64,000 nucleotides of DNA from Sinomonas cyclohexanicum (GTDB lineage: Bacteria > Actinomycetota > Actinomycetes > Actinomycetales > Micrococcaceae): assembly GCF_020886775.1 (NCBI RefSeq), contig NZ_AP024525.1:2480001-2544000 (forward strand), written 5' to 3'. A program made the position numbers and the translations under genes. Positions 39,976-50,277 of this stretch are shown here, piece after piece. The notes under the pieces are model-generated. The model had not been told where the DNA came from. It searched no databases and was given only the letters and a program-made list of their open reading frames with translations. Every line of letters starts with the position of its first letter. Position 1 is the stretch's first letter.

Positions 39976-40040
39976 GGACGCAAGACTAGCGCGGGCATCC
40001 ACATGCTGGTCACATCGGTCTCGCCATGCGGACCCCCATC

Positions 40041-46358: not shown

Positions 46359-48232
46359 TCAGTCCTCCTCTTCCCAGTCGGGGGTGGAATTGCGGGCGAC
46401 CTGGATGAGGTCGTTGCTGACGCCCGAGGGCACCATGGGCCAGACCATCGCGTTGGGGCTGACCACGAAGTCGATGACCACGGGGCGGTCGTTGATCTCG
46501 AGCGCCTTGGCGATCACGGTGTCGACGTCCTCCTCGCGCTCCACGCGGAACGACGCGCAGCCGTACGCCTCGCCGAGCTTGACGAAGTCCGGGATGCGCA
46601 CGGTGTCAGCGCCGGTCTGGAGGTCGGTGTTGGAGTAGCGGCCGTCGTAGAAGAGCGTCTGCCACTGCCGGACCATTCCGAGCGAGGAGTTGTTGATGAC
46701 CGCGACCTTGATCGGGATGTTGTTCAGGGCGCACGTGGCGAGCTCCTGGTTGGTCATCTGGAAGCAGCCGTCGCCGTCGATCGCCCACACCACGCGGTCC
46801 GGGTTGCCGACCTTGGCACCCATGGCCGCGGGCACGGAGTAGCCCATCGTGCCGAGGCCTGCCGAGTTCAGCCACGCGTGCGGACGCTCGTACTTGATGA
46901 ACTGCGCGGCCCACATCTGGTGCTGGCCGACGCCCGCCACGTAGACGCCCTCGGGGCCCGTGAGCTCGCCGATGCGCTGGATCACGTGCTGGGGGCCAGG
47001 AGTCCGTCCTCGGGCTCCGTCCAGCCGAGCGGGTAGTCCTCGCGCAGCTTGTCCAGGAACGACCACCAGGCGGTGAGGTCCGGCGCGCCGTCCTTCTCGC
47101 GGCTGGCCCTCACGGCCTCTGTCAGCTCGGGGAGGATCTCCTTCACCGAGCCGACGATCGGCACGTCAGCGGTGCGGTTCTTGGAGATCTCCGCCGGGTC
47201 GATGTCGGCGTGGATGACCTTCGCGTTCGGGGCGAACGTGCTCAGGACGCCCGTGACGCGGTCGTCGAACCGCGCACCCAGGGTGATGAGGAGATCGGCC
47301 TGCTGGAGGGCCGTGACGGCCGCGACGCCGCCGTGCATGCCGGGCATGCCGACGTGCTGCGGGTGCGAGTCGGGGAAGGCCCCCCGCGCCGTGAGCGTCG
47401 TGGCGACCGGGGCCCCGGTGGCCTCGGCAAGTGCGAGGAGCTCGGCCGAGGCGTGCGCCTTGACGACACCGCCGCCCACGTAGAGGACCGGCTTCGAGGC
47501 GGCCGCGATGAGGCGCGCGGCCTCGCGGACCTGCTTGCTGTGGCCGCGCGTGACCGGCCGGTAGCCGGGAAGGTCGATCTTGGGGGGCCAGCTGAACATC
47601 GTCTTGGCCTGCTGGGCGTCCTTCGTGACGTCCACGAGGACGGGGCCGGGGCGGCCCGTCGAGGCGAGGTGGAATGCCTCGGCAAGGGTCTGCGGGATGT
47701 CCTCCGCCTTCGTCACGAGGAAGGAGTGCTTCGTGATCGGCATGGTGATGCCCACGATGTCCGCTTCCTGGAACGCGTCCGAGCCGATGACCGTGCTCGA
47801 GACCTGGCCGGTGATTGCAACGAGGGGAACGGAGTCCATGTGCGCGTCGGCGATCGCGGTCACCAGGTTGGTGGCGCCCGGGCCCGACGTCGCGATGCAG
47901 ACTCCCACACGGCCGGTGACCATCGCATACCCTTGGGCAGCGTGGCCGGCGCCCTGCTCGTGGCGCACCAGCACGTGGTTGATCTTCGAAGCCATCAGAG
48001 GGTCGTAGGTCGGCAGGATCGCGCCGCCCGGGAGACCAAAGACATCGTCCACGCCCAGTTCCTCGAGCGAGCGGACAATTGCTTCAGATCCAGTCATCTC
48101 TGTGGGCTCAACGACGCGGTTGGGCCCCAGGACGGCAGAGGCAGAGTCGACGGTGTCGACAGGATCCGCGGCCTTGGCCGCGGACGGCTTCGAAGCCATC
48201 AGCGATGGGCTGATCGGCGTTCCTTTGCTCAT
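46359..48232 (-). pseudogene. ilvB: Acetolactate synthase large subunit, interrupted by a 1-base frameshift
   Basis: ThDP enzyme starting Val, Leu and Ile synthesis. ATG 48232 begins an actinobacterial N-terminal extension, then [29 protein letters not shown] and [14 protein letters not shown] with the ThDP Glu. The first frame stops at 46982 as ...EDGLLAPST. The rest, with [31 protein letters not shown] and the ThDP/Mg motif [29 protein letters not shown], lies in another frame to 46359. The break is at five G (plus 46991-46995); one more base gives [11 protein letters not shown] and a 624-residue protein. With ilvN, ilvC and an attenuator intact, real loss is unlikely unless a second ilvB exists. 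Confidence 0.9.
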
Positions 48233-48274
48233 CAGTCTCTTCCTTAGGATCTTCGTGGCGAAGGTTTTGTGCTC

Positions 48275-48316
48275 AAAAACGAAAAACCCCTCGGCCGTCT
48301 GGCGTCTCGAGGGGTT
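48275..48316 (-). terminator. ilvB attenuator (terminator hairpin)
   Basis: On the minus strand AACCCCTCG (48308-48316) pairs with CGAGGGGTT (48285-48293), followed by TTTTTCGTTTTT down to 48275. It is an intrinsic terminator 43 bp upstream of ilvB and downstream of a leader peptide, so it must be read through for ilvB expression. Confidence 0.9.
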
Positions 48317-48340
48317 GCGCGTGACAGATCGTGCCAGACG
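48296..48340 (-). promoter_or_regulatory. Candidate antiterminator of the ilvB leader
   Basis: CGTCTGGC (48333-48340, minus) just after the leader stop codon is complementary to GCCAGACG (48296-48303, minus) in the attenuator loop. This pairing encloses the 5' arm of the terminator, so the two folds compete. The arrangement fits ribosome stalling control. Confidence 0.6.
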
Positions 48341-48343
48341 TGC

Positions 48344-48409
48344 TCAGTGAGCCACGCGCTTGGCAAGGACGACGACATCGAGCACCATGCTCGCCGGGAC
48401 GATCTGCAT
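48344..48409 (-). CDS. ilvB leader peptide, 21 residues
   Basis: Reads MQIVPASMVL then DVVVLAKRVAH and stop. Nine of 21 codons are Ile, Val or Leu, including three Val in a row, the signature of a branched-chain amino acid attenuator. When charged Val/Leu/Ile tRNAs run short the ribosome should stall here and favour the antiterminator. The ATG lies only about 8 bp after a possible -10, with no Shine-Dalgarno, so the mRNA may be leaderless. Confidence 0.85.
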   Translation of the reverse strand: MQIVPASMVLDVVVLAKRVAH

Positions 48410-48416
48410 GCCCACA

Positions 48417-48445
48417 GTCTTGCCAATCCGGCTCCGGGGTGTCAA
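48417..48445 (-). promoter_or_regulatory. Candidate ilvB leader promoter
   Basis: Perfect -35 TTGACA on the minus strand (48440-48445). With 17-18 bp spacing the -10 would be CAAGAC or AAGACT (48416-48422), which is weak. The position just before the leader peptide is right. Confidence 0.5.
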
Positions 48446-48528
48446 TCTGGCCCGCACCCGTCTCAATATACGGACACGCATCCAGCACGTGAGACTGACT
48501 CGTCATCGATGCTCGGCACCCGGACGGC

Positions 48529-50277
48529 TCACCCCAAGACGGCGCCCTCGCTCGCGGAATGCACGAGCTTGGCGTACTTCGACAGCACCCCCCGTGTGAA
48601 GCGGGCCGGGAGCGGCTCCCAGCCCTCTCGCCGCGCGGCCAGCTCGGCGTCGTCCACCAGCAGGTCCAGCGTACGGTTCGGGATGTCGACGCGGATCCGG
48701 TCGCCGTCGCGCACGAGGGCGATGGGGCCGGCGTCGACCGCCTCCGGCGCGACGTGGCCGATGCACAGCCCGGTGGTGCCCCCGGAGAACCGGCCGTCGG
48801 TGAGCAGCAGGACCTCCTTGCCGAGGCCGGCGCCCTTGATGGCGCCGGTGATGGCGAGCATCTCCCGCATGCCCGGGCCGCCCTTGGGGCCCTCGTAACG
48901 GATCACGACGACGTCGCCCGCCGCGATCTGCCCGGCGTCGAGCGCGTCGAGGGCGCCCTGCTCGCGCTCGAACACGCGGGCGGCGCCCTCGAACACCTCG
49001 GCGTCGAACCCAGCCGTCTTCACCACTGCACCCTCGGGCGCGAGCGAGCCGTGCAGGATCGAGAGTCCGCCGGTGCGGTGGATCGGGTTGTCCATGGCGC
49101 GCACGATCTTGCCGTCGAGGTCCGGCGGCGCGATCTCGGCGAGGTTCTCGGCCACGGTCCTGCCGGTAACGGTGAGCGCGTCGCCGTGCACCAGCCCGGC
49201 GTCGAGCAGCGCGCGCATGACGACGGGCACGCCGCCCACGCGGTCGAGGTCATACATGACGTAGCGGCCGAACGGCTTGAGGTCGCCCAGGTGCGGGACC
49301 CGGTCCCCGATCCGATTGAAGTCCCGCAGCTCGAGCTCCACTTCCGCCTCGCGCGCGATCGCGAGCAGGTGCAGCACGGAGTTGGTCGAGCCGCCGAAGG
49401 CCATGACCACGGCGATCGCATTCTCGAAAGCCTCCCGGGTGAGGATGTCCCGGGCGGTGATGCCCTGCCGCAGGAGGTTCACGACCGCCTGGCCGGAGCG
49501 GTGCGCGAACATGTCGCGGCGCCGGTCCGCGGACGGCGGCGCGGCGGAGCCCGGGAGCGACATGCCGAGGGCCTCGGCAGCGCTCGCCATCGTGTTGGCC
49601 GTGTACATGCCGCCGCAGGCGCCCTCGCCGGGGCAGATGGCGCGCTCGATCCGGTCGAGGTCTCCAGTGGTCATCCGCCCCGCGGCGCAGGCCCCGACGG
49701 CCTCGAACGCGTCGATGAGCGTCACATCCTTCTCGGTGCCGTCCTCGAGCTTGACCCAGCCGGGCATGATCGAGCCCGCGTAGAGGAACACGCTCGCGAC
49801 GTCGAGGCGCGCGGCGGCCATGAGCATGCCGGGCAGCGACTTGTCGCAGCCCGCCAGCAGGACCTGCCCATCGATCCGCTCGGCCTGCATGACCGTCTCG
49901 ACCGAGTCCGCGATGATCTCGCGGGAGACGAGGGAGAAGTGCATGCCCACGTGCCCCATCGAGATGCCGTCGGACACCGAGATGGTGCCGAACTGCATGG
50001 GGAACCCGCCCGCCGCGTGCACGCCCTCCTTGGCGGCCTTGGCGAGCCGGTCCAGCGAGAGGTTGCATGGGGTGATCTCGTTCCACGAGCTCGCGATCCC
50101 GACCTGCGGCTTGGCGAAGTCCTCGTCGCCGAAGCCGACCGCACGCAGCATGCCCCGCGCGGGAGCCGCATGGATGCCGTCCGTGACCACGCGGCTGCGC
50201 GGCTTGGGATCGACCGCCCCCGAAGTGGCGGAGGCCGCCGTCGTGCTCACACCAGTCGTCCCGCTGCGCTCGGTCAT
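48529..50277 (-). CDS. ilvD: Dihydroxy-acid dehydratase
   Basis: 582 residues. Fe-S dehydratase in Val/Ile synthesis. [17 protein letters not shown], the cluster cysteines in [20 protein letters not shown] and [29 protein letters not shown], then [17 protein letters not shown] and [23 protein letters not shown] are diagnostic. It lies about 120 bp upstream of the ilvB leader promoter on the same strand but has its own transcript boundaries. Confidence 0.97.

Follow-up and report, generated by a model that had tools for sequence, protein, structure and literature searches.

The DNA upstream of ilvB in Sinomonas cyclohexanicum probably specifies a ribosome-mediated transcription attenuator of ilvB(N)C, in which a leader peptide would be translated from a leaderless transcript and a helix, b:b', joining the end of the leader reading frame to the segment directly preceding the terminator, would form the read-through state. 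Most likely the attenuator is of a kind already known in related bacteria, with a supported switch pairing that differs from the one first proposed for this DNA: an antiterminator picked by eye is replaced by two helices with support from compensatory changes. If b:b' is the read-through state, a helix that merely touches the terminator would defeat it, a step absent from strand-exchange models. Computation shows which elements are present, how they are conserved, covary and are spaced, and how they are predicted to fold; positions (Table 1) refer to the window, the whole stretch of 64,000 nucleotides that was analysed.

Table 1. Features of the ilvB leader region in the window, in the direction of transcription, with the basis on which each was placed
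Feature	Positions	Strand	Basis
Second candidate operator half GTCTCACGTGCTGGA, weak fit to the NdgR motif given in PMC4340878, unscored	48481-48495	minus	
Candidate IclR-type (NdgR/LtbR) operator GTCCGTATATTGAGAC, upstream of the -35	48460-48475	minus	genome pattern search
-35 hexamer TTGACA	48440-48445	minus	sequence; conserved in Micrococcaceae loci
-10-like hexamer AAGACT, spacer 18 nt, ATG 6 nt on	48416-48421	minus	sequence; spacing conserved
Leader peptide ORF, 21 codons, MQIVPASMVLDVVVLAKRVAH, predicted leaderless	48344-48409	minus	ATG 48409 to TGA 48344
a1, leader codons pairing with a1'	48399-48406	minus	P 0.95 ribosome-free; class covaries
Regulatory codons Val12-Val13-Val14-Leu15	48365-48376	minus	sequence; conserved spacing to helix b
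a2, UGCCA right after the Val run; alternative partner of UGGCA 48332-48336	48361-48365	minus	
b, GCGCGUGGC, end of leader ORF	48351-48359	minus	de novo RNAalifold, pair counts, duplex test
5' strand of the antiterminator proposed first, CGUCUGGC, unsupported as switch	48333-48340	minus	duplex test, folding
a1', post-stop partner of a1, shares one base with b'	48325-48332	minus	duplex test, folding
b', GUCACGCGC, directly 5' of the terminator	48317-48325	minus	RNAalifold, pair counts, duplex test
Terminator 5' arm AACCCCUCG, 0 nt from b:b'	48308-48316	minus	sequence; arms covary
3' strand of the antiterminator proposed first, GCCAGACG, inside the terminator loop, unsupported as switch	48296-48303	minus	
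Terminator 3' arm CGAGGGGUU	48285-48293	minus	sequence
T-rich tail TTTTTCGTTTTT, first two T shared with the 3' arm	48275-48286	minus	sequence
ilvB, 5' part of reading frame, broken near 46992	46982-48232	minus	NCBIfam

The ilvB locus and its leader peptide

On the minus strand the attenuator elements fall between ilvD (ORF 50277-48529) and ilvB (ATG 48232), ordered 5' to 3' as candidate IclR-type operator, TTGACA, AAGACT, leader ATG at 48409, 21-codon ORF and terminator. Family models identify the neighbouring genes as those for the large and small subunits of acetolactate synthase, ketol-acid reductoisomerase and dihydroxy-acid dehydratase, with 3-isopropylmalate dehydrogenase and a branched-chain aminotransferase further downstream. 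The best NCBIfam match of ilvB is the acetolactate synthase large subunit (E 1.6e-207), although its 690.6 bits stay below the cut-off of 881, a shortfall in keeping with a partial frame, and a genus search covering 14 genomes and the window genome returned an ilvB match in each of the 14 others. Near 46992 the window ilvB has, on the minus strand, one base fewer than three aligned congeners, which breaks the gene into a frame of 416 aa and, downstream of it, a second frame that is conserved; open ilvB frames run to 634-661 aa in all 14 other genus members, compared with 453 in the window. The break is either an assembly error or a truly broken gene, and the congeners hold intact copies.

The TTGACA hexamer at 48445-48440, the 21-codon leader in which Ile, Val and Leu make up nine codons, Val-Val-Val included, and the terminator with a T-rich tail ending at 48275, 43 nt upstream of the ilvB ATG, had all been pointed out in an earlier note and are read directly from the sequence, as is the full run Val-Val-Val-Leu at 48376-48365. 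The note had set the leader ATG about 8 bp past the likely -10; the actual gap to AAGACT, which matches the -10 consensus TATAAT at three of six positions, is 6 nt, so that transcription would begin at the ATG itself, with the A at 48409 as the start predicted from promoter position. A mechanical scan returned no promoter and no terminator at its thresholds, which in our opinion reflects the weak -10 and a terminator loop of more than 8 nt.

The promoter layout recurs in relatives. Among the Micrococcaceae matches listed, which are mainly the best-ranked and over-represent closer relatives, 130 of 133 loci carry a -35 with at least five of six matches to TTGACA and 129 place it 29-31 nt from the called start codon (30 nt in 88, 29 nt in 31, 31 nt in 10); these 133 rows omit the family members L035, L039 and L056, include wrong automatic leader calls for L020, L209 and L226, and contain one genome under both L147 and L229. 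The leader finder searched for a -35 only 26-35 nt upstream of the start and scored its match to TTGACA, so the range of spacings is partly built in, while the sharp peak at 29-31 nt is not. Very probably, the ilvB leader is translated from a leaderless transcript with no room for a Shine-Dalgarno sequence, as had been surmised from the window, and, judging by the kept spacing, starts of this kind are the rule among ilvB leaders of the Micrococcaceae examined. Such a start had been described as unusual, but within Actinobacteria it is not: in C. glutamicum ilvBNC the +1 is reported a single nucleotide away from the start codon (PMC11857589, which cites Morbach 2000), and transcriptome work called S. 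lividans ilvL leaderless (PMC8079986).

A leader of 20-21 codons rich in codons for branched-chain amino acids (BCAA) occupies the same place, with the same TTGACA spacing, in all 14 congeners and recurs in most of the wider family sample; the terminator is likewise present in 14 of 14 congeners and most of the wider family, with arms and U-tract conserved. The stability of the whole leader was not above chance relative to shuffled sequences (z -0.71; 43 of 200 as stable), and under our criteria the ilvB upstream regions of Microbacterium and Leifsonia (L060, L084, L093, L094, L102) yielded no candidate leader. One Micrococcaceae group (including L049, L157, L158, L160, L170, L184, L190, L199, L202, L214, L223 and L224) has leaders cut short at VIS or VII, with a GCGCGUG-like element at and after the stop and a long spacer to the terminator.

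Covarying helices and the antiterminator proposed first

The comparative sample comprised 213 upstream regions, six of them (L029, L060, L084, L093, L094, L102) without a candidate leader; among the 207 with one, 187 passed a layout search and represent 174 distinct sequences. The 20 that did not pass consist of eleven set aside by hand (L019, L020, L021, L023, L035, L038, L039, L051, L053, L054, L055), seven with a low score (L027, L032, L056, L077, L085, L101, L112) and two in which the pattern failed (L052, L163). An abutting stem is still visible by eye in L019, L021, L027, L032, L052, L054 and L055, and L023, L051 and L053 have leaders with a different layout.

Pairing was evaluated by a duplex test in which leaders were cut into segments and native duplex energies were compared with cross-species ones over 2000 permutations, in 30 representatives obtained by clustering the 91 family sequences, out of 132, that carry the leader-end pattern. 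With kinship handled by clustering only, the leader codons and the post-stop segment (A:A') gave a native energy of -14.20 versus -11.67 across species, and the leader end and the pre-terminator segment (B:B') gave -15.53 versus -14.44, none of the 2000 permutations being as good in either case; the terminator arms also covary (5 of 2000 as good). Apart from these three, A:B' and the type of pair proposed first, the remaining eleven of the 16 segment pairs had 104-1903 permutations as good. A stop-codon hairpin (S1:S2) was rejected, having no covariation (1607 of 2000). For leader codons with the pre-terminator b' (A:B'), too, native duplexes outdid cross-species ones (18 of 2000), and an a2-type pair of 6 bp, UUGCC(A/G):UGGCAA, occurs in L009 and L011-L015. 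A fixed-register covariation scan of the 91 sequences gave no clear signal, in our opinion because the register of a:a' shifts between genera.

Helix b:b' was also recovered de novo, as the sole helix that RNAalifold predicted from 50 sequences, the terminator being absent from that prediction. The alignment for the model holds 50 of 77 dereplicated sequences, and among the omitted 27 is the group whose b follows the stop. Pairs of B:B' and the terminator are standard in 87.7% of cases versus 82.5% in shuffles, none of 500 reaching the native value, with the tool's own caveat that related sequences may beat such shuffles without structure; slid versions gave 33.9-65.6%. B:B' alone is 93.8% paired, with three pairs changed on both sides, and its four outer pairs are nearly invariant and hence uninformative. 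The near-invariance of the b/b' core, beyond the needs of a stem, could point to a translation-independent RNA regulator, either a riboswitch or a protein-binding RNA. We regard such a regulator as very improbable: Rfam at gathering scores gives only five tRNAs in the window, the single match at E<=1 within 48150-48600 lies far below its cut-off, and an ORF with a BCAA run and fixed geometry is conserved. Neither a ppGpp riboswitch nor a T-box at the ilv genes was matched by Rfam in the window.

The position of b is tied to the leader reading frame. Relative to the first base of the stop codon, the start of b falls anywhere from 19 nt upstream to 2 nt downstream in all 174 distinct sequences; the search itself spanned 27 nt upstream to 6 nt downstream of the ORF end. 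In most sequences GCGCGUG specifies the last leader residues (KRVA, QRVA); in one group of Micrococcaceae the leader ends earlier (VVVIS and stop) and GCGCGUG lies at the stop, and b starts 2 nt past the first base of that codon in 18 of 174. Since b is found at and after the stop in short leaders, its conservation is unlikely to serve the peptide and more probably reflects an RNA element. From the first codon of the last BCAA run to b the distance is 14-26 nt in 171 of the 172 run-bearing sequences (of 174). The leading edge of a ribosome lies some 13 nt downstream of the first A-site base; with this geometry, a ribosome on the first Val codons would leave b free and one at the stop would cover it, and a stall at Val14 or Leu15 would already hide part of b. 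In predicted folds of the window, b:b' has a P of 6e-6 in the ribosome-free state, where a1:a1' wins at 0.95, and of 0.99 when the A site holds Val12 or Val13; a ribosome at the stop masks b. By geometry and predicted folds, a switching segment would thus be exposed by a stalled ribosome and hidden by a terminating one.

The earlier note had assigned the switch to a different pairing, between an antiterminator arm right after the leader stop and a segment further downstream. As a general switch, this pair, CGTCTGGC:GCCAGACG, failed tests of conservation, covariation and folding: it has at least 8 bp in 7 of 15 genus members and at most 5 bp in the other 8; the post-stop segment and the terminator loop gave a native energy of -12.22 versus -11.93 across species, with 523 of 2000 permutations as good; and in folds of the window with the full terminator its P does not exceed 0.0014. 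Of this pair, described as mutually exclusive with the terminator arm, the 3' strand (48303-48296) lies wholly in the loop (48307-48294), so that the 9-bp stem is not shared.

A classical attenuator, in which stalling would let CGUCUGGC pair with GCCAGACG in the loop and so compete with the terminator, can nevertheless draw on the 8-bp complement in the window, on 8-9 bp in six congeners, and on the fact that a ribosome at the stop covers the 5' strand. The pair also forms transiently in the predicted folds while the terminator 3' arm is still to be transcribed, with P of 0.61-0.63 for a ribosome at Val12 or Val13, dropping to 0.08-0.13 three bases later, and of 0.93 and 0.91 for a ribosome at Val14. 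The placement of the 3' strand in the loop and not the stem, together with the genus counts, the permutation result and the folds with a full terminator, argues against this mechanism, which we consider quite unlikely. What had been called a complete attenuation system is supported by comparison as an attenuator with a BCAA-rich leader peptide, and covariation is present in the terminator arms, A:A' and B:B'; the antiterminator named in that proposal is not supported.

The terminator junction and a proposed model for read-through

The terminator has a 9-bp stem, and in the window b:b' ends flush against it. The two helices, b:b' and the A-U-extended terminator, adjoin directly (0 nt) in 97 of 174 sequences, made up of 78 among 111 Micrococcaceae and 19 among the other 63, with spacings from -2 to 4, and they share 1-2 nt in 14 of 174, narrow spacing that is partly imposed by a layout search demanding b' within 5 nt of the terminator arm. 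A strand-sharing antiterminator, sought by folds and by the duplex test, was not found, and an abutting helix was found instead. In folds beginning from b, an upstream partner of the terminator 5' arm before the 3' arm is made has a P of at most 0.01 in 29 of 30 representatives, the exception being L149, where the 5' arm is paired upstream at 0.80; for leader codons with this arm, 1101 of 2000 permutations were as good. By nearest-neighbour folding the finished terminator has a P of at least 0.99 in every ribosome state of the window, so this kind of folding predicts no switch.

From these features we infer a transcript start, translation of the leader, stalling and read-through caused by b:b'. 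In the absence of a ribosome, the leader codons would pair with the post-stop segment (a:a'), excluding b:b', and the terminator would form. With charged BCAA tRNAs, the ribosome would reach the stop and hide b, so that b:b' could not form and the terminator again would. Under Val starvation, the ribosome would stall at Val12 or Val13 and leave b free, and b:b' would form flush on the terminator 5' arm, leading to read-through. Because the operon is expected to be induced by starvation and starvation would free b, b:b' is taken to favour read-through. It would probably do so by keeping the base of the terminator from closing at the RNA exit channel, with no strand in common; a steric conflict there would be the simplest route to read-through, and the alternatives are a pause at b:b' or a partial overlap with the terminator.

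Known ilvB attenuators and possible control at the promoter

Attenuators of the E. coli trp and ilv type have 5' UTRs with a Shine-Dalgarno sequence and strand-sharing antiterminators; as in these, the RNA structure in the window would be chosen by ribosome position. Closer parallels come from actinobacteria. The window resembles C. glutamicum ilvBNC and the ilvB-II motif (PMC11857589, PMC10272879) in its BCAA leader, its predicted +1 close to the start codon, a hairpin across the leader codons that would serve as an anti-antiterminator, and its terminator before ilvB. In C. glutamicum, antiterminator H2 is reported as overlapping terminator H3, whereas in the window no upstream partner of the terminator arms is supported and b:b' abuts the terminator. 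The ilvB-II motif is described with P1 spanning the uORF, P2 as the terminator and an antiterminator made of the P1 loop and the right shoulder of P2. The leader/post-stop helix of the window resembles P1, but the overall ilvB-II layout was not recovered in the duplex test; an antiterminator of that type, with the terminator 3' arm paired to the post-stop segment or to the leader, gave 631 and 1408 of 2000 permutations as good, respectively.

Like S. lividans ilvL (MRTRILVLGKRVG*; PMC8079986), the window leader is predicted to be leaderless and carries BCAA codons, and the same order of b, b' and terminator is present in the Streptomyces loci compared; unlike the window leader, Streptomyces ilvL is shorter and has ILVL in place of VVVL. 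No literature on an ilvB leader peptide in Arthrobacter was found among open-licence papers.

The attenuator of M. tuberculosis ilvB1NC is experimentally supported, whereas that of the window is predicted from sequence and folds. A 2026 paper (PMC13236596) reports a terminated transcript of about 120 nt, induction by IlvB1 inhibitors, a low reporter signal independent of inhibitor dose when LVVI is changed to AAAA, and an anti-terminator hidden by the ribosome at the stop. Mycobacteria-like loci found with our model carry LVVI leaders. Four loci were taken into folding, which yielded rows for three mycobacteria-like ones and none for the Streptomyces-like L236; in the three, with 124-128 nt to the U-tract, folding places b:b' against the terminator when GUA is in the A site and leaves the terminator alone when the ribosome is at the stop. 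The likeness of these loci to M. tuberculosis (PMC13236596) extends over the LVVI codons, the length of the terminated RNA and the masking of the anti-terminator by the stop ribosome, and the M. tuberculosis anti-terminator may correspond to b:b'. In two of the three loci (L250, L254) b:b' is already predicted in the ribosome-free state, which means that the anti-antiterminator is not general.

A search of the phylum with the model, under strict filters, found matches at E<=0.01 in 28 of 396 genomes, and the family is therefore either far from universal or poorly captured by the model outside its training set. The window genome has one good match (E 1.1e-9, the next being 2.38), the window itself belonging to the training set. 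Actinobacterial ilvB attenuators, whether of Micrococcaceae, streptomycetes or mycobacteria, might belong to a single RNA family with a non-strand-sharing antiterminator. In it, a helix of the leader end and the pre-terminator segment would sit flush at the terminator base and hinder its closing sterically at the RNA exit channel, and in many members an anti-antiterminator would exclude this helix by topology (order a-b-a'-b'). This is a tentative proposal that we hold to be possible but doubtful.

Control could also act mainly at the promoter, through an IclR-type regulator, with the leader and terminator real and codon-dependent attenuation weak or absent. The GTCYNNATNNTGAGAY pattern of the candidate NdgR/LtbR operator upstream of the -35 has two exact matches in the 4.41 Mb genome, that site being one of them, compared with none for the backward control, and similar operator-like sequences precede the -35 in relatives. 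Two papers on S. coelicolor point the same way, one naming ilvB a direct NdgR target (PMC4340878) and the other reporting that substitution of BCAA codons had no effect, which casts doubt on codon dependence there (PMC1262725) although the layout in Streptomyces is the same. Set against these, dominant promoter control would leave the codon/b/stop geometry and the covariation of a:a' and b:b' without evident purpose, codon dependence is reported in M. tuberculosis (PMC13236596), and at least two operator matches with at most one mismatch also arise in 5 of 100 window shuffles. We therefore judge promoter control to be an unlikely main mechanism and retain codon-dependent attenuation through b:b' as the preferred reading.

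The other exact match of the operator pattern lies at G000:C1:1447214-1447229 (L261), and a copy with one mismatch, counted in favour of promoter control, lies in the window at 40018-40033 on the minus strand, about 37 bp upstream of the leuB start. Within 48232-48275, a possible small hairpin, CUUCGCCACGAAG, follows the terminator and precedes the Shine-Dalgarno-like AAGGAAGAG of ilvB; it is identical across all 15 genus members.
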